From contig NZ_FNWL01000001.1 of NCBI RefSeq assembly GCF_900108095.1, positions 868,001 to 932,000 on the forward strand: DNA of 64,000 nt. Direction: 5' to 3'. Positions 47,660 through 59,537 of the stretch are shown here, piece by piece. The stretch comes from Natronorubrum sediminis (GTDB taxonomy: Archaea > Halobacteriota > Halobacteria > Halobacteriales > Natrialbaceae). Position numbers and translations under genes: made by a program. The first letter of the stretch is position 1. Each line of letters starts with the position of its first letter. The notes beneath the pieces are model-generated. The model worked only from the letters and a program-made list of their open reading frames with translations, did no database searches and was not told the DNA's origin.

Positions 47660-48070
47660 ATGACTCGAAACCGACAGTCACGACGACGGCTGCTCCAGTT
47701 GGCCGGGGCCACAGCGTCGACGGCGCTACTGGCCGGCTGTGGCGGCCCGGGACAGGAAGAAGAGGAAGATCCCGAGGAGCCAGCCGGCCCCGAAGAGGAC
47801 GAGGACCCCTCGGCGGAGGAAGGGACGGGCAACGGCCAGGAACGAGAAGACGAGGACGAGGAGGACACTGAGGACGAAGACCCCGAGGATGAAGAGGACA
47901 CGGACGACAGCGACGAGGATATCGCCGGAAACGGCGAGGGTGAAGAAGACGACGAAATCGAAGGTGACGTCGGAGACGAGGATATCGACGACGATGACGG
48001 AGGCGATGCCGAAGACGACGGAGACGACGCCGAAGACGACGGAGACGACGGTACCGGCGAAAACGGCTGA
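47660..48070 (+). CDS. Tat lipoprotein with highly acidic tail, probably truncated by stop codons
   Basis: 136 residues from ATG 47660. MTRNRQSRRRLLQLAGATASTALLAGC is a twin-arginine signal with lipobox Cys ~27. The mature part is nearly all Asp, Glu, Gly and Pro (EEEEDPEEPAGPEEDED, DEDEEDTEDEDPEDEED, DDGGDAEDDGDDAEDDGDD) and has no fold; such tails bind cations and stay soluble in salt. Reading on after the TGA at 48068 in the same frame gives NGENC ENG, a second TGA (48095), then NGGSRENEDE and TAG at 48128. The repeat continues through both stops, so they may be recent nonsense mutations. Confidence 0.75.
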   Translation: MTRNRQSRRRLLQLAGATASTALLAGCGGPGQEEEEDPEEPAGPEEDEDPSAEEGTGNGQEREDEDEEDTEDEDPEDEEDTDDSDEDIAGNGEGEEDDEIEGDVGDEDIDDDDGGDAEDDGDDAEDDGDDGTGENG

Positions 48071-48130
48071 AACGGCGAAAACTGCGAAAACGGCTGAAAC
48101 GGCGGAAGCCGCGAAAACGAGGACGAGTAG
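48056..48130 (+). repeat. short tandem repeat (GAAAACGGC-like, 9-bp) over the lipoprotein end
   Basis: Imperfect repeats of GGCGAAAAC / GGCTGAAAC run from about 48056 to 48118 (GGCGAAAACGGCTGAAACGG..., then GCGAAAACTGCGAAAACGGC...). In the lipoprotein frame they encode Gly-Glu-Asn units with two TGA interruptions. The array is a slippage-prone sequence. Confidence 0.75.
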
Positions 48131-48233
48131 CCGTCTCACCCGACGATGCGCGCATCCACACGATAGGGACACGCCGTCTCGACAGTCGTGTATTTCGCAC
48201 ATAACAACCCTTCATCGGGTCGAACCGACGGGC

Positions 48234-49568
<1,335 letters not shown>

Positions 49569-51321: not shown

Positions 51322-52644
51322 ATGACGCTATCACGACGAACGACAATCAAGGCAATCGGTGTCGCTGGCGCAGGGTCGGCACTGACTGGAACGGCTCTGG
51401 CCATCAACCAGGACGACGTCGACGATGACGACGGCGGAGTGGGCGCGATTCGCGTCGGACACTTCTCACCGGACGCACCCGACGTGGACGTCTACATCGC
51501 CAATCAGCAGGTCCTCTCGGATGTCGGCTACGACGAACTCTCGCCGTACCTCGACATCGCCCCCGGTACGTACACGATGACGATAACGGAGGCCGGCGAC
51601 GACGAGCCCATCTACGAGGACTCCATCACGGTCGACACGGACTACTACACGGTCGCTGCAATCGGCGAGTACGGCGACGAAACGGCTGAAACCGCCTCGT
51701 CGATTCAGGAAGAGGAAGACGAGTACGACGACGATGACGACTACGGTGAAGACGACGACTACGACGCTGACGACGACCCGGTGGACGAGCCCGAAGCGGA
51801 GCCCGAGGACGACCTTGAGGACGACGTAGAAGACGAACCCGAGGACGACCTCGAGGACGATGACGACCTCGACGATGATCTCGAGGACGACGACGACCTC
51901 GAAGACGAAGACGACGACCTCGAGGACGAAGACGAGATCACCGACGACGGTGAGTTCGAAGTTCGGATGCTCTACGACGCAGGCCCCGACGACGTCGAAG
52001 AGGAATCCCAGCTTCGCGTCTTCAACGCCTCGCCGAACTCGCCCGAACTGGACGTCACGGAGGAAGAAGACGGATACACCATCTTCGAAAACGTCGCCTA
52101 CGCCGAGCCACCGGGATACGCGCCGATCGACTCCGGCTCCCGGACCATCCAACTCTTCGAATCGGACGACGACGACCTCGAGGCAGGCGACGATGACGAA
52201 GACTTCGGTGACGTCATCGCACAAGAAGACCCACTCGCCGCCGCCGAAGCCGACCTCGAGGAAGGAACCGCGTACACGGTGTACGTGATCGGCTACTTCG
52301 AAGAGGGAGACGGCGACGGTGCGACCGCAGAGGGCGACCGACCGTTCGAAATGCGAGTCGCCGTGGACGGCGGCGAAGAGGACGTCGACGGCGAACCTGA
52401 AGAAGCTGAGCCGGACGAAGAGGAAGTCGACGACGACGAAGACGACCTCGAGGACGAGCCAGAAGACGAACTCGACGACGATGAAGAACTCGAGGACGAC
52501 CCCGAAACCGATCCGGAAACCGACCCCGAGGAGGAACCGGAGGCTGAACCCGAGGAGGAGCCAGAGGCCGACCCCGAGGACGATTACGCCGACGAAGACG
52601 ACCCAGCCGACGGCGAAGAAGAGCCGATGCCGGCCGACGACTAA
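51322..52644 (+). CDS. exported DUF4397-domain protein with acidic linkers
   Basis: 440 residues. MTLSRRTTIKAIGVAGAGSALTGTALA is a Tat signal (RRTTIK). DUF4397-like segments follow: VGAIRVGHFSPDAPDVDVYIANQQVLSDVGYDELSPYLDIAPGTYTMTITEAGDDEPIYEDSITVDTDYYTVAAIGEY (~38-115), and after an acidic linker (~130-210, EDDLEDD repeats) a second half, ESQLRVFNASPNSPELDVTEEEDGYTIFENVAYAEPPGYAPIDSGSRTIQLFE, then AYTVYVIGYF. The domain is thus split by, or duplicated around, the acidic insert. The C-terminal ~80 residues are a DPETDPEEEPEAEPEE tail. Surface or secreted protein, role unknown. Confidence 0.85.
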   Translation: MTLSRRTTIKAIGVAGAGSALTGTALAINQDDVDDDDGGVGAIRVGHFSPDAPDVDVYIANQQVLSDVGYDELSPYLDIAPGTYTMTITEAGDDEPIYEDSITVDTDYYTVAAIGEYGDETAETASSIQEEEDEYDDDDDYGEDDDYDADDDPVDEPEAEPEDDLEDDVEDEPEDDLEDDDDLDDDLEDDDDLEDEDDDLEDEDEITDDGEFEVRMLYDAGPDDVEEESQLRVFNASPNSPELDVTEEEDGYTIFENVAYAEPPGYAPIDSGSRTIQLFESDDDDLEAGDDDEDFGDVIAQEDPLAAAEADLEEGTAYTVYVIGYFEEGDGDGATAEGDRPFEMRVAVDGGEEDVDGEPEEAEPDEEEVDDDEDDLEDEPEDELDDDEELEDDPETDPETDPEEEPEAEPEEEPEADPEDDYADEDDPADGEEEPMPADD

Positions 52645-53106: not shown

Positions 53107-53283
53107 GGATCACCCTCTGAATGACGACGTTCACCGATCTGTGGCTTTGTTATAGAGCAGGTACGAGCGCTCGGCAAACCAGAACGCAGGACATAGGGCC
53201 GACGGGCGGAGACGGTGCGTCTCGTCGCTCGAGAGCGACGCCGAGACGGCGCGTTTTTTGCAGAGACCGGCGTACGGGCCGAT

Positions 53284-53838
53284 ATGACGAACGATCCGCT
53301 CTCCTGGATGACGACGAATCAACAGGTAGCCTACTCCTGTCCGGGCTTCGACGTCGTTAACGAGTCCGTTCAGTTACCCGACGGCACCGAAACCGAGTTC
53401 GATTACGTCTCCGAACCGGAGAGCGTCTGCATCCTCCCCTTTACCCCCGACGGAGACATCGTCTGCATCGACGAGTGGCGGCAGGCCGTCTCTCGAGTCA
53501 ACCGCGGCATCCCCGTCGGCGGGACCGAACCCGACGACGACTCGATCGAGGCGGCCGCCCGGCGCGAACTCGCCGAAGAGACGGGCCACGAAGCGGACTC
53601 GCTCGAGTCGCTGGTAACCGTCGAACCGGCGAACGGCCTCGCCGATTCGGTCCTCCACGTCTTCGTCGCCACCGGCTGTCGACCGACGGCCGAACAGCGA
53701 CTCGATCACAACGAGAGCATCCGCGTGACCCACTGGAGCGAATCGGACGCGCTCGAGGCCGTCCGCGAGGGAGACGTCCGCGACGGACGACTGGTGCTCG
53801 CGCTGTCGTACTACCGGCTCTTCGAAGCCGAAAGCTGA
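53284..53838 (+). CDS. Nudix hydrolase (ADP-ribose pyrophosphatase-like)
   Basis: 184 residues from ATG 53284 (MTNDPLSWMTTNQQVAYSCPGFDVVNE). Nudix box: GGTEPDDDSIEAAARRELAEETGHEADSLESL (GX5EX7REUXEEXG) near residues 78-105. The preceding VCILPFTPDGDIVCIDEWRQAVSRVNRGIPVGG resembles ADP-ribose pyrophosphatase family members (xxRQYR-like segment here EWRQAV). Hydrolyses a nucleoside diphosphate derivative; the substrate needs testing. Divergent from the PadR gene, 177 bp apart. Confidence 0.9.
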   Translation: MTNDPLSWMTTNQQVAYSCPGFDVVNESVQLPDGTETEFDYVSEPESVCILPFTPDGDIVCIDEWRQAVSRVNRGIPVGGTEPDDDSIEAAARRELAEETGHEADSLESLVTVEPANGLADSVLHVFVATGCRPTAEQRLDHNESIRVTHWSESDALEAVREGDVRDGRLVLALSYYRLFEAES

Positions 53839-53956
53839 AAACCGAAACGGAGAATCGGCTACCCGAAACTACTCGTCGTCCCTGCCGACGACGCCTGTCT
53901 CTTCGTCATCGCCATCTTCGCCGTCGTCCACATCAGCGACGTGATGTCCGAAATCC

Positions 53957-54148
53957 TCACCCACTCGCCATCAACGGTTTCCTCCTCGACCCGTCGTCAT
54001 CTTTCCGGATAGTCGACGCGGGTTGTTCTTCGGTATCGGTGTCGTTCTCAGCGTCGCTGCTCTCCCGGAGTTCCTCCGCAATCTCGCCGTCGACATCGGA
54101 ATTTTCGACGGGTGTCCCAGGAGGGTACCGAGCTACTCTGATGTTCAT
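53957..54148 (-). pseudogene. short acidic ORF, possibly a frameshifted gene
   Basis: Minus-strand frame of 63 codons (MNIRVARYPPGTPVENSDVDGEIAEELRESSDAENDTDTEEQPAS...). Its start looks like a real acidic haloarchaeal protein. The frame ends at TGA soon after KPLMASG, while the +1 or -1 frames beyond it read DGEWVRISDIT and then an acidic GEDGDDEETGVVGRDDE ending at a stop. Two acidic ends and a middle in another frame suggest one short gene broken by a frameshift. The whole gap 53839-54222 has no other gene. Confidence 0.35.
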
Positions 54149-54222: not shown

Positions 54223-55689
54223 TTAGATCAGGGACGCACTTGGGAGGAGTCCGTCGTCGTCTTCGTCATCCTCGGTGTCCTCGTCATCGTCCTCGTCGTC
54301 GCCGTTGAGGAGTCCGTTGTCTTCGTCTTCAGCGTCTTCGTCTTCAGCGTCTTCGTCGTCAGCGTCTTCATCGTCCGCTTCCTCGAGTTCGCTTGCGTCG
54401 GCGAGCGTGATTGAGTCTGCGCTCGCGTCACCGATGTCGATCATGGATGCAGAGGCCTGCGTGACGGTCTCTTCGTCAGCGTCCTCGTCATCCATGTCGT
54501 CGTTCTCGTCGTCCTGGACGGCGGCGTCAGTTTCCGCTTCGTCGTTGTCGTTGTCCGCAGCGTCGTCAGCACCGTTGTCGTCGGCGTCAGCGTCCGCATC
54601 AGCGTCGTCGTCTGCGTCGTCAGCCTCCTCTTCGTTGGCTTCGTCGACGGTCATCGAGTCGATGGTAATCTCGTCGACATCGAACTGCTCGATGGTGAGC
54701 TGACCGAGTTCTTCAGTTTCGCCGTTAGCGTCTTCGTCGTCAGCGTCCTCGTCAGCATCCTCATCGTCCGCTTCCTCGTCGTCCATGTCGTCGTTCTCGT
54801 CGTCTTGGACGACAGCGGCAGTTTCTGCCTCGTCGTTGTCGTTGTTCTCAGCGTCGTCGGCACCGTTCTCGTCGTCAGCGTCCTCATCAGCTTCGTCATC
54901 GTCGTCAGCCTCCTCGTCGTCAGCTTCGTCACCGACGGTTAGCTCGTCGATGGTCAGCGTCTCGACATCCATCGTCTCGATGGTGAGCTCTTCGACGGTG
55001 ACCTCGCTAGCGTCCTCGTCGATCAGATCCTGTCCGTTTGCAGCGTCTTCGTCGTCAGCGTCTTCGTCGTCAGCGTCCTCGTCGTCAGCGTCCTCGTCGT
55101 CTGCCTCGTCGTCTTGGACCACTGCGGCAGTCTCTTCCTCGTCGTTGTCGTTCTCATCAGCGTCGTCAGCGCCGTTCTCGTCGTCAGCGTCCTCATCGTC
55201 TGCGTCGTCAGCGTCCTCGTCGTCTTCGTCGAGTTCGAGGTCCTCGATGGAGACATCCTGTAGCTCGAGTTGCTCGAGTTGGATGTCGGAGATCGTCACT
55301 TCTTCACCGTTTTCTGCCTCGTCGTTGTCGTCAGCTTCCTCGTCTTCCTCGTCGTCTTGGACGACTGCAGCAGTTTCTTCCTCGTCGTTGTTCTCAGCGT
55401 CGTCGTTCTCGTCGTCGGCGCCGTTCTCGTCGTCAGCGCCGTCGAGTTCCTCTTCGAGTTCGGTCGTGTCAGCGTCGAAGTTCTCGACGTTCAGCTCTTC
55501 GATCGTCGCGTCTTCGACGGTGGCATCATCGAGCTCGAGTGTTTCAACGTCTGTATCTTGAATCGTTGCGCTCATGTCGCCGGCATCGTCGGTCGCACCT
55601 GTCGACGCACCCGCGAGGGCAGGACCCCCCGAGAGAGCAACCATCAGAGCGACGAATACGACACCGAGTTTCTGCGATCGTGAATCCAT
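54223..55689 (-). CDS. secreted modular acidic protein with five short beta-like blocks
   Basis: 488 residues. Signal peptide MDSRSQKLGVVFVALMVALSGGPALAGA (cleavage ~27). The mature protein alternates five short hydrophobic blocks with acidic linkers. Blocks at ~47-78, 129-154, 228-254, 328-352 and 407-434 show a period of five with aliphatic residues at positions 1 and 3 (VTVEE LTIET MDVET LTIDE LTVGD), like turns of a pentapeptide-type beta-helix. Linkers of 70-75 residues are Asp/Glu-rich and share ETAAVVQDDE (at 105, 186, 289 and, as ETDAAVQDDE, 386). No membrane anchor at the C-terminus. The Asp-repeat DNA (GACGCTGACGACGAA) is slippage-prone. Function unknown; a cation-binding surface or matrix polymer is inference. 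Confidence 0.85.
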   Translation of the reverse strand: MDSRSQKLGVVFVALMVALSGGPALAGASTGATDDAGDMSATIQDTDVETLELDDATVEDATIEELNVENFDADTTELEEELDGADDENGADDENDDAENNDEEETAAVVQDDEEDEEADDNDEAENGEEVTISDIQLEQLELQDVSIEDLELDEDDEDADDADDEDADDENGADDADENDNDEEETAAVVQDDEADDEDADDEDADDEDADDEDAANGQDLIDEDASEVTVEELTIETMDVETLTIDELTVGDEADDEEADDDDEADEDADDENGADDAENNDNDEAETAAVVQDDENDDMDDEEADDEDADEDADDEDANGETEELGQLTIEQFDVDEITIDSMTVDEANEEEADDADDDADADADADDNGADDAADNDNDEAETDAAVQDDENDDMDDEDADEETVTQASASMIDIGDASADSITLADASELEEADDEDADDEDAEDEDAEDEDNGLLNGDDEDDDEDTEDDEDDDGLLPSASLI

Positions 55690-55828: not shown

Positions 55829-56017
55829 GAAAAATACCACCCCCGGTAGACGTGGTTTGTAGTTGTGCCTGCACTCGCCGATATCAGCCGACACTGACGC
55901 CGTAACGGATGGTTTTGTTTGCTCAGCACCGTCCTCAAGAGCGGGAGAAGACAAACGACCGACACGTCCCGGGCGAAACCTTCACTGACTTACGTCGGAC
56001 GGCCCAACCCACGTTCG

Positions 56018-57499
56018 ATGCGCGAGTGCTTCGAAGTCCGGGACACGGACGCCGGTGGGCGAATCGGCGAGTTGACCGTTCCGCGAGCAGACGTTACCGT
56101 CGAGACGCCGGCGCTGTTGCCGGTGATCAACCCGAATCTGGATACGATCGCCCCCCGTCGACTGGCCACGGAGTTCGGCGCTGAAATCCTCATCACGAAC
56201 TCGTATATCATCCACGGGACCGAAGACGTCCGCGAGGAGGCCCTCGAGGACGGCCTCCACGACCTGCTCGATTTCCCCGGCGCGATCATGACCGATTCGG
56301 GTTCGTTCCAGCTCTCGGAGTACGGCGAGATAGACGTGACGACCGAAGAGATCCTCGAGTTCCAGCACGAGATCGGCTCGGACATCGCGACGCCGGTCGA
56401 TATCCCGACTCCGCCGGACGTCCCCCGCGAGCGCGCCGAGGACGAACTCGAGACGACCCAGGAACGCCTCGAGTTAGCCGAAACCGTCGAGACGGGAGAC
56501 ATGCTCGTCAGCGCGCCCGTCCAGGGCTCGACGTACCCGGATCTTCGCGAGCGGGCGGGTCGTCACGCCGACGCGACGAATCTGGACGTGTTTCCGGTCG
56601 GTGCGGTCGTCCCGCTGATGAACGACTACCGCTACGACGACATGGTCGACGCCGTCGCGGGGGCCAAACGCGGTCTCGGCGCCGACGCCCCGGTGCACCT
56701 CTTCGGTGCCGGCCACCCGATGATGTTCGCCCTCGGCGTCGCAATGGGCTGTGACCTCTTCGACTCTGCAGCCTACGCGCTCTACGCCCGCGACGATCGC
56801 TACCTGACGGTTCGTGGCACTCGCCACCTCGAGGACCTCGAGTATCTGCCCTGTTCGTGTCCCGTCTGTACCGAGCACTCGCCCGACGAACTGCGCGCGC
56901 TGCCCGACGACGCACGCGAGACGGAACTCGGCGCGCACAACCTCCACGTCACCTTCGAAGAGATCCGCCGGATCAAGCAAGCCATCCGCGCGGGGAACCT
57001 CCTCGAACTCGTCGAGCAACGCGCCCGCGCCCACCCGACGATGCTCGACGGCTACCGAACGCTGCTCGATCACGCCGACCAACTCGAGCGAAGCGACCCC
57101 GTCTCCAAGGGCGCGTTCTTCTACACCTCCCACGAGAGTGCCCGCCGACCCGAAGTCCGTCGCCACCATCGGCGCCTCGAGCGCCTTTCCGTACCGGACT
57201 CGCTGTTTCTCACGGAAGGGAATTCCGCACGGACCGATGAGTTCGACGACTCCTGGCGCGTCCAACCGCCGTTTGGCCCCTTCCCCCGCGCGCTCTCGAA
57301 GAGCTATCCGCTCACTGCGGAAGTACCAGATCGAACGGATCGCGCGGCCCTCGAGGCCGCGGCAGACGGCGTCAGCCGACTCGTAGAGGCGAATCCCGAC
57401 GCGGCGATCACGTTGGGCCATCGGGGCTGGCCGGAGGGTGTGCTCGAGCGGGTCCCCGAGGACGTGGTGTTGACCGATCTCTCTGACGATCGGCCCTGA
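56018..57499 (+). CDS. tgtA: archaeosine tRNA-guanine transglycosylase
   Basis: 493 residues from ATG 56018 ([22 protein letters not shown]); the frame is open earlier but that part is not family-like. Swaps guanine-15 of tRNA for preQ0, the first archaeosine step. Seen: [54 protein letters not shown] (catalytic Asp), [53 protein letters not shown], and zinc site [14 protein letters not shown] with downstream HNLHVT. No PUA domain follows, so it is the single-domain haloarchaeal TgtA. arcS, the next enzyme, begins at 63042. Confidence 0.95.
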
Positions 57500-57599: not shown

Positions 57600-59537
57600 G
57601 TGCCCGCTCTCTCCACAACCAGGGTCGTTCTGGGCGCGTTCATCGTCGTCGTCCTCGGTGCCGCGGGATTGTTCGTCGTCGACGCCGGTTCGACGTCACC
57701 GGACCCAGTCGCGTTCGACGAAACGGTTCACAGCGGGATCACGCTCGAAGCCGAACGCGAACTCGACGACGACGTTGAGCTTCCCCGAGCGCAAGTGTTC
57801 TATTCTCAGTATCAGTACGTCGTCGGCTACTACGGCGTCGAGACGTTTGCCGACGACCAGCAACAGCCAGAACACGAGCAGCGGTTCGGACACCCACTGA
57901 CGGTGTACGTCACCGACTACAGCGGGACTGGCGTCGAACTGGACGACGACGGGTATCCGACGACGGACGGCTCTCCGGAGTGGACCGACGCCGAAACGGC
58001 GTGGTACGTCCTCGAGAGCGACGCGGAGACGCCGGCTGGAACGACCGTCGTTCCGTTTACCGATCGCGACGACGCCGACGCGTTCGCCGACGAGTACGGC
58101 GGCGACGTTCGCGGTTGGGAGTCGGTTCTCGAAGCCACGTACGACCGGGACGATGCGGCGGTCGCGCGCGATCGCGTCGACAGCCACCGACAACTCGCCG
58201 ACGGTCGGGTCGAACAGACAGCTGAGTTCACGGAGCGACCGACATCGTCGGTCGTCGGTTCCGACGCGGATACGATTCAGGAAGCGATCGACGAGGCTCC
58301 CGCCGACACGACGGTCCGCGTCCCGAACGGAACGTACGAAGAGACCGTCGAGATCGATCGTCCGCTGACGATCGTCGGTGACGAGGACGTGACGATTCGC
58401 GGTGACGGAAACGGCTCGGTGGTCACCGTCACTGACGAGCGTGTCGCGGTCCAAAACGTCTCGATCGACGGCGTCGGCGAAACGACGAGAGGTGACGGCG
58501 ACGTCGATATCGACGTTGACGACGAGGAGCTTGGCGCGACGTTCATGCGGAACTACGCGAGCACTGACGCGGGCATCGCAGCCTACAGTGCCGACGAATT
58601 GCTGGTGCAGGACGTCCACATCGACACCCCGGCGAGCGGAATCCTTACGCACGGAACCGACGACGCCGCCGTTCGAAACGCGACGGTCGTTGGACCGGAT
58701 GACCCCACGGACGGCCTCGCTGGCATATTGTTGCTCCAGTCGAATGCAGTGATCGAGACTTCGACGGTCGACGGAACGACAAACGGCGTGTACCTGTACC
58801 GGTCCCCGTCGACGGTCGTCCGGTCGAACTCGGTCACGGGTAACCAGCTAGGCGTCCACCTGATGCACACGGACGAGTCGCTTGTCACGGACAACGAGAT
58901 ACACGGCCAGACAAACACCGGTGTGTACATCATGACGGGGCCAGAGCGAAACGCGATCGTCGGAAACACGATCCGAGACACCGAAACTGGCCTCAGTCCG
59001 GGCGGCAGCGACACTTACGTTGCGGACAACCGCATCGAGAACTCGAACGTCGGTCTTCGTGTCGATACGGCCTCGTCGATCTACGAGGGGAACGTCGTCG
59101 CCGGCAACGAGGTGGGAGCAGACGTGACCGGGATGTTACCGACGAACCGCGTCGTCGGCAACGACTTTGTCGCAAACGAAGAGCACGCGACGGTCACCAG
59201 CGGACCGCTACGAATCTGGAGCGACGATGGAGGTGGAAACTACTGGCAAGGCGCTGCCGGCGTCGCCAGCGGTGACTACGCCGATCGGTCGTACACGCCG
59301 ACGGACGACGTCGACAAGCGACTACACACGACCGACGGCACGCCGACGCTCGTCCAAGCACCGGCGCTCGAGGGCCTCGCCGGGCTCGAAGGAACGGTTC
59401 CGGGAATGCGGACCGGCAGTATCACCGACAACTACCCGGCCTGTGAACCGATCAACGCGGACCGGCTCGAAGCGACCGGCTGGGACGACCAGGCGTGGAC
59501 GTGCTACGAAACGACGCGTACACCGACCGATGACTGA
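57600..59537 (+). CDS. nosD: NosD-type periplasmic copper/N2O-reductase accessory protein with NosL-like N-terminal domain
   Basis: 645 residues, GTG start (MPALSTTRVVLGAFIVVVLGAAGLFVVDAG, an exported N-terminus). Residues ~40-200 resemble NosL, with the block TTVVPFTDRDDADAFADEYGGD; the same motif (DDADAFADEYGGD) occurs in the NosL protein at 61293. Residues ~210-600 are a right-handed beta-helix of the NosD/CASH type (SDADTIQEAIDEAPADTTVRVPNGTYEETVEIDRPLTIVGD, then ~22-residue repeats such as NAVIETSTVDGTTNGVYLYRSPSTVVRSNSVTGNQLGVHLM). NosD helps deliver sulfur or copper to N2O reductase with NosF/NosY. The stop overlaps nosF. nosZ is not here. Confidence 0.85.
   Translation: MPALSTTRVVLGAFIVVVLGAAGLFVVDAGSTSPDPVAFDETVHSGITLEAERELDDDVELPRAQVFYSQYQYVVGYYGVETFADDQQQPEHEQRFGHPLTVYVTDYSGTGVELDDDGYPTTDGSPEWTDAETAWYVLESDAETPAGTTVVPFTDRDDADAFADEYGGDVRGWESVLEATYDRDDAAVARDRVDSHRQLADGRVEQTAEFTERPTSSVVGSDADTIQEAIDEAPADTTVRVPNGTYEETVEIDRPLTIVGDEDVTIRGDGNGSVVTVTDERVAVQNVSIDGVGETTRGDGDVDIDVDDEELGATFMRNYASTDAGIAAYSADELLVQDVHIDTPASGILTHGTDDAAVRNATVVGPDDPTDGLAGILLLQSNAVIETSTVDGTTNGVYLYRSPSTVVRSNSVTGNQLGVHLMHTDESLVTDNEIHGQTNTGVYIMTGPERNAIVGNTIRDTETGLSPGGSDTYVADNRIENSNVGLRVDTASSIYEGNVVAGNEVGADVTGMLPTNRVVGNDFVANEEHATVTSGPLRIWSDDGGGNYWQGAAGVASGDYADRSYTPTDDVDKRLHTTDGTPTLVQAPALEGLAGLEGTVPGMRTGSITDNYPACEPINADRLEATGWDDQAWTCYETTRTPTDD

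Follow-up and report, generated by a model that had tools for sequence, protein, structure and literature searches.

PENTAPEPTIDE repeat proteins are defined by at least eight contiguous repeats with an L/F-centred consensus, given in 2019 as (A/C/S/V/T/L/I)(D/N/S/K/E/I/R)(L/F)(S/T/R/E/Q/K/V/D)(G/D/E/N/R/Q/K) (PMC8145042). Loops of 8 and 12 residues leave the solenoid of QnrB1, and Rfr32 has a signal peptide (PMC8145042). Here, we analysed a stretch of 64,000 nucleotides from Natronorubrum sediminis (the window), which encodes a very acidic protein built on pentapeptides. The gene, a single copy in this genome, occupies 54223-55689 exactly, on the minus strand (55689..54223), as an ORF of 488 aa with an ATG start, and the plus-strand frame of the same interval is broken by stops. 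The original prediction of a 488-residue product with a signal peptide and without a membrane anchor was borne out. A Sec-type signal, MDSRSQKLGVVFVALMVALSGGPALA followed by GA, is kept across the family alignment, the putative cleavage site being placed by inspection; the mature chain has no Cys and hence no lipobox cysteine, and no C-terminal membrane segment was seen by eye, the C-terminus being a short DDDGLLPSASLI tail. The window protein thus carries neither the lipobox Cys nor the C-terminal anchor signal of haloarchaeal lipoproteins and sortase/PGF-CTERM-anchored proteins. In many relatives (e.g., L036, L037, L042, L048), a short hydrophobic tail of the form QPSIAVLN or LPSIAALS recurs after a very acidic stretch and resembles no known anchor signal. 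Asp and Glu make up 48% of the 488-aa chain, in agreement with the Asp/Glu-rich linkers first proposed, and the mature protein contains no K, R, H, C, W or Y. Because it lacks Lys and Arg, it offers trypsin no cleavage site and would escape standard proteomics, a possible reason why such proteins stayed uncharacterised.

In the mature chain, aliphatic residues formed 30 pairs at lag 5 and 27 at lag 10, where 11.8 and 10.2 were expected (z 6.6 in both cases), and pairs at lags 4, 6, 9 and 11 were depleted. For the null, residues were shuffled within 20-residue stretches, and none of 2000 shuffles reached the observed counts. The proposed repetition with period 5 was therefore upheld in the lag analysis, but the five strings that had been quoted as five blocks follow one another as pentapeptides within one block (residues 230-254). 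In total, 25 pentapeptides are grouped in five separate blocks of 7, 5, 5, 4 and 4 (Table 1), with the consensus [LVMAI]-[TESD]-[IVL]-[ED]-[DESNTQ], and 97% of the pentapeptides in the family carry aliphatics at i-2 and i. In 51 members compared, the blocks keep a constant length (sd 0-1.7 aa) and show a mean column entropy of 1.08 bits with no gaps; the linkers between them measure 19-129 aa, with 1.92 bits and 29% gaps. Some block residues are invariant across genera in the family alignment, and dN/dS against the sister genome G001 is 0.10 in the blocks and 0.18 in the linkers. Each block is 51-66% identical to the block at the same position in other species (block 5, the least conserved, shows 51% identity to its orthologues), while blocks within one protein share only 17-28% identity. 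This comparison of sequences indicates that the five blocks are of old origin, each tied to its position, and that the recent duplications are those of the linkers.

Table 1. Features of the five-block gene and its surroundings, in window coordinates
Feature	Position	Strand	Basis
Whole gene, type A of the family	54223..55689	minus	ORF; relatives in 31 of 60 other genomes
Sec signal peptide, residues 1-26, putative cleavage between ALA and GA	55612..55689	minus	family alignment; site by inspection
Block 1, residues 41-75, 7 pentapeptides ATIQD TDVET LELDD ATVED ATIEE LNVEN FDADT	55465..55569	minus	fixed length, low column entropy, register
Linker motif ETAAVVQDDE, copy 1, residues 105-114	55348..55377	minus	sequence
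Block 2, residues 131-155, 5 pentapeptides VTISD IQLEQ LELQD VSIED LELDE	55225..55299	minus	entropy, model, register
Linker motif ETAAVVQDDE, copy 2, residues 186-195	55105..55134	minus	sequence
Block 3, residues 230-254, VTVEE LTIET MDVET LTIDE LTVGD	54928..55002	minus	entropy, model, register
Linker motif ETAAVVQDDE, copy 3, residues 289-298	54796..54825	minus	sequence
Block 4, residues 331-350, LTIEQ FDVDE ITIDS MTVDE	54640..54699	minus	entropy, model, register
Linker motif ETDAAVQDDE, copy 4, residues 386-395	54505..54534	minus	sequence
Block 5, residues 412-431, ASASM IDIGD ASADS ITLAD	54397..54456	minus	entropy, model, register
C-terminal hydrophobic tail GLLPSASLI, counterpart of the ...QPSIAVLN tail in many relatives	54226..54252	minus	tails of 51 members
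Decayed relic of copy B, between the window gene and the NUDIX gene	about 53839-54129	minus	blastn to intact B of sister G001 (L084:4739-5857)
NUDIX hydrolase, conserved neighbour, side opposite tgtA	53215..53838	plus	Pfam NUDIX 1e-11; 37 loci
PadR-like regulator, conserved neighbour, median 95% identity	52831..53106	minus	Pfam PadR 2.7e-13; 37 loci
tgtA (TGT family tRNA-guanine/archaeosine transglycosylase), conserved neighbour	55919..57499	plus	Pfam TGT 4.9e-85; flanks the family in about 29 loci

The linkers occur in two flavours, either Asp/Glu-rich or dense in N-x-S/T sequons. Those of Natronorubrum, Natronococcus and others are 50-67% Asp+Glu and nearly free of sequons, and those of Natrinema, Haloterrigena, Halovivax and others have an acidic share of 20-42% and as many as 41 N-x-S/T sequons. 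The more acidic the linkers, the lower their sequon density tends to be (rho -0.84), and 496 sequons were observed against 121 expected from shuffled linkers. Judging from composition, acidity and sequons may be two routes to a hydrated or charged linker. The trade-off is phylogenetically clustered, following clades, and may reflect the expansion of NET-type repeats, which would itself create sequons. The linkers of L048 (11779-13467), L017 and L019 contain long tandem units of regular sequence, for example ENDVEEDE or DNGVADD, suggesting expansion by slippage.

In the window protein, the three copies of ETAAVVQDDE and the one of ETDAAVQDDE begin at residues 105, 186, 289 and 386, so that the spacings of 81, 103 and 97 in the original prediction are exact. 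It is one form of a broader motif class, AAxxQ[DE][DE/N], which occurs 71 times (3.3 after shuffling) in 24 of 102 proteins and is present in the neighbouring DUF4397 protein as well. A stretch of 194 nt occurs three times in the gene at 72-78% identity, with spacings of 291 and 309, indicating that linker DNA was duplicated or homogenised. The idea of a DNA unit duplicated several times thus holds for the linkers but not for the blocks, whose low mutual identity marks them as old and distinct and rules out recent duplication of block-plus-linker units. The DUF4397-containing secreted protein (51322-52644, plus strand, E 4.3e-32) has long acidic linkers of its own with the same motif class (ETASSIQEEE, ALAINQDD), and its relatives also have wholly different linkers, for example NGYDNGNG repeats in L085. 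A secreted-looking ORF at 47739-49568 (plus strand), polysaccharide-deacetylase-like by eye, contains a run of more than 20 consecutive Asp.

No match to the window protein was found in Pfam or NCBIfam at E<=10, in keeping with the earlier remark that its layout fits no described family. Among the papers returned by literature searches on haloarchaeal pentapeptide repeat proteins, acidic secreted proteins and Natrialba secretomes, no title or abstract described the family, plasmid records gave no match, and a sequence-profile search of the PDB returned only 3pet at E 1.9, which is not meaningful. Relatives were found by whole-genome search in 31 of 60 related genomes, nearly all of the same family, and the 43 loci from a scan of named genomes were all from Natrialbaceae except two from Halorussus. 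The window protein shows the signal peptide, the five ordered blocks of fixed length, the variable linkers and the site between tgtA and NUDIX/PadR that characterise these relatives. Overall, the five-block family is real, undescribed, widely conserved in its clade and structurally odd.

The site is fixed in Natrialbaceae, in the order tgtA, A, (B), NUDIX and PadR. Many genomes carry two copies in tandem, A beside tgtA and B beside NUDIX; in some Natrinema (L038, L045) the copies lie apart, one with tgtA and the other with NUDIX/PadR. A conserved amphipathic insert of the GILDQIGDFFEGLF type between blocks 3 and 4, of the form G[IVL]LDQIGDFFEGLF (e.g., L032:11602-12774, L054:11552-12646), was present in B and never in A in 13 of the 13 tandem pairs tested, and most single-copy relatives carry it. 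From its sequence, this insert is a possible membrane- or partner-binding helix. The window gene is of type A, and a relic of B lies beside it, with blastn segments at 53839-53907 (81%) and 53939-54111 (73%) and the intervening parts of B missing. The window genome has lost its partner copy B, and the degraded remnant on site rules out that B is missing through assembly loss. Among eight genomes without a convincing match, the tgtA-NUDIX interval was short and held no family gene in six, and no family match was present in the fetched region of the other two (G014, G017). Since several related genomes have no copy at the site or match elsewhere, the window gene appears dispensable. A NosD/NosL fusion with both Pfam matches (57600-59537, plus strand), followed by ABC transporter genes, adjoins tgtA in only a few relatives. 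An ORF of 1132 aa in L053 (6111-9509) merges an antisense tgtA frame with a family gene and is an ORF-calling artefact, a hazard of high-GC genomes.

Outside Natrialbaceae, Halorussus and several other genera encode proteins with the same kind of ordered blocks. The remote relatives examined mostly terminate in an Ig-like domain, for which the CARDB match in L073, the only one tested, had an E-value of 1.2e-3, below the cut-off. They sit between methionyl aminopeptidase (map) and asparaginase/isocitrate dehydrogenase (icd), a site common to several haloarchaeal families, and the map/icd site is present without a family gene in the window genome and in two further Natrialbaceae. The two sites could be accounted for by a relocation in which the Ig-like domain was lost, or by different paralogues having been kept. 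In Halorussus and in L093/L123, blocks 1 and 2 are joined by a few residues and blocks 2 and 3 by about 15, and three of the five Halorussus blocks are nearly contiguous, as expected if the linkers are insertions into a continuous solenoid. This arrangement suggests either that linkers were inserted into a nearly continuous repeat region in Natrialbaceae or that they were lost in Halorussus.

The mature window protein was modelled with AlphaFold2 using 51 sequences, and the model showed confident strand blocks and disordered linkers. In the full model the decile pLDDT reached about 94 in blocks and was <50 in most of the linkers, with a mean pLDDT of 58.5, a pTM of 0.51 and over half of the chain disordered. 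DSSP assigned nearly every block residue to a strand or bridge, and the model strand of block 1 covers residues 53-73. A pTM of 0.51 despite the disorder implies that the blocks are placed relative to one another, since a far lower score would be expected from five blocks of 20-35 residues that were independent of one another. Moreover, at four pentapeptides per coil a block of 20-25 residues overlaps itself by only about 5 residues, so strand partners would come from other blocks. A compact three-block Halorussus fragment of 119 aa gave a moderate model (pLDDT 76.6, pTM 0.63). Taken together, pTM and DSSP point to contacts between blocks, and the models suggest that the five blocks stack into one beta-solenoid with the linkers looped out. 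The proposed single turns of a pentapeptide-type beta-helix were thus supported in kind, as seen from the aliphatics at i-2 and i, the model strands and the sub-threshold Pentapeptide_4 matches, but not in the isolated turn as the unit, given 25 pentapeptides in five blocks that are likely one stack. Foldseek found no significant match in the PDB for the full or the Halorussus model, which leaves the fold class unconfirmed, and none in BFVD for the full model; VIA-align returned nothing significant. The weak Foldseek hits of the full model were mostly right-handed beta-helices of the pectate-lyase or NosD type (E 1.5-10, TM about 0.05).

We then compared the blocks with the published definition. 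No uninterrupted run in the window protein exceeds 7 pentapeptides, one short of the eight contiguous repeats of the definition (PMC8145042), and remote relatives with near-contiguous blocks get nearer to it but retain breaks. Of 1271 family pentapeptides, only 10% match the 2019 consensus; the chief reason is a centre occupied by I/V in 65% and by L/F in 22%. The curated cut-off of the Pfam pentapeptide models (38 bits) was not reached by any score, the best among the matches listed being about 22 bits; the linker-free blocks scored 14 bits and a remote relative 21.8 bits. Pentapeptide_4 recurred below threshold in several members (best 1.9e-4). Other sub-threshold Pfam matches of the linker-free blocks, among them DUF6046, Glyco_hydro_49 and Phage_spike, were for the most part not shared between members and were discarded as repeat-driven noise. 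As for the quadrilateral beta-helix with four repeats per coil, the blocks are predicted strands and the monomer is modelled as one unit, and the PDB gave no match. An ordinary pentapeptide-repeat protein with loops (Rfr fold, Pfam clan of PF00805/PF13599), Qnr-like but larger, would account for the period of 5, the paired inward positions and the Pentapeptide_4 matches, and known members do have loops that leave the solenoid, as in QnrB1 (PMC8145042). However, the run length, the consensus fit, the I/V centre, the Pfam scores and the lack of any pentapeptide protein among the Foldseek hits in the PDB make this explanation improbable. No known family with a fixed fold and no linkers was matched either. 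In its workings the window protein resembles a pentapeptide-type solenoid, but it departs from the published consensus and contiguity; until a structure is solved, it is a variant of that solenoid and not a new principle.

Belief and doubt are about evenly poised, in our judgement, over the reading that the window protein is an exported member of an undescribed family, whose five blocks form one short beta-solenoid and whose disordered brush, looped out from it, holds water and cations. The protein would be exported by Sec, as its signal suggests by inspection, and, with no lipid or C-terminal anchor, would be released from the cell or held at its surface. The five ancient blocks of 4-7 pentapeptides would fold together into a solenoid, probably a rigid rod, which would have some six coils if each coil takes four pentapeptides and would be the conserved scaffold of the family. 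The four linkers of about 20-130 residues would loop out as a brush, strongly polyanionic or, in some genera, studded with sequons, which may evolve by repeat expansion under selection on composition rather than sequence. We infer cleavage and export, glycosylation, brush function and location; the role that we judge most likely for the brush is to retain water and cations in a layer that would lie at the cell surface or within the extracellular matrix. The amphipathic helix of B copies is a candidate attachment element, and A and B may split free and attached forms, of which the window organism kept only A. We propose more tentatively that the family forms a split beta-solenoid rod from five conserved blocks with polyanionic or N-glycosylated loops, a bottle-brush without positive charge, in which the I/V-centred pentapeptide would be a new solenoid subclass and provide an extracellular hydration or ion layer across haloarchaea.

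The blocks might also act between chains, as intermolecular beta stickers separated by soluble linker spacers in an extracellular gel or fibre. Such a polymer would be in keeping with beta blocks that are short and strongly hydrophobic within a chain free of positive charge, with the extra short hydrophobic islands AAxxQDD inside linkers and with the recurrent hydrophobic C-terminal tail, and high salt would screen the linker charge. However, blocks so unlike one another, each conserved in its own position, better suit a fixed order within one chain than interchangeable stickers, and together with the monomer pTM and the near-contiguous Halorussus blocks they render this arrangement rather unlikely. 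That the protein is a low-complexity acidic by-product of salt adaptation, with no folded parts or specific function, might be argued from linkers that are of low complexity and freely variable, from the gene's absence at the site in several relatives and from the decay of copy B in the window genome. Such a view can hardly be reconciled with invariant block residues across genera, the low block dN/dS, fixed synteny, a difference that recurs consistently between paired copies and the occurrence of remote relatives in other families of haloarchaea, and we consider it very improbable.

If the solenoid with looped-out linkers is correct, a beta-solenoid would be able to accommodate, after roughly each coil, an unstructured insert of 20-130 residues, and in these inserts a physical property (charge or glycans) would be preserved even though all sequence identity is lost. 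An undescribed extracellular family would also be added to haloarchaeal surface biology, and its paired copies and fixed gene neighbourhood make it genetically testable.

Among known systems, pentapeptide repeat proteins (PF00805, PF13599; the right-handed quadrilateral beta-helix of MfpA, Qnr and Rfr32) share with the window family the five-residue period, the inward i-2 and i positions and an expected beta-solenoid from whose coils loops may project, and Rfr32 shares a signal peptide (PMC8145042). In contrast, the window family has an I/V centre and large aliphatics at i-2, its blocks are interrupted by acidic or sequon-rich linkers of 20-130 residues, and it lies below the Pfam cut-offs with no significant structural match. 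Most Foldseek hits of the full model, none of them significant, were right-handed parallel beta-helices of the pectate-lyase/NosD type, but these have no sequence relation to the window protein and their coils are not built of pentapeptides. CARDB-containing secreted proteins of haloarchaea resemble the remote relatives (Halorussus L072/L073, L093, L124, L126), in which the block region is followed by a CARDB-like domain, a weak match in L073, the one protein tested; the window protein and its Natrialbaceae relatives are without this domain. Halomucin, a protein secreted by the haloarchaeon Haloquadratum, is likewise very acidic and is presumed to maintain a hydrated layer. It is much larger, and no sequence relation to the window protein is claimed.
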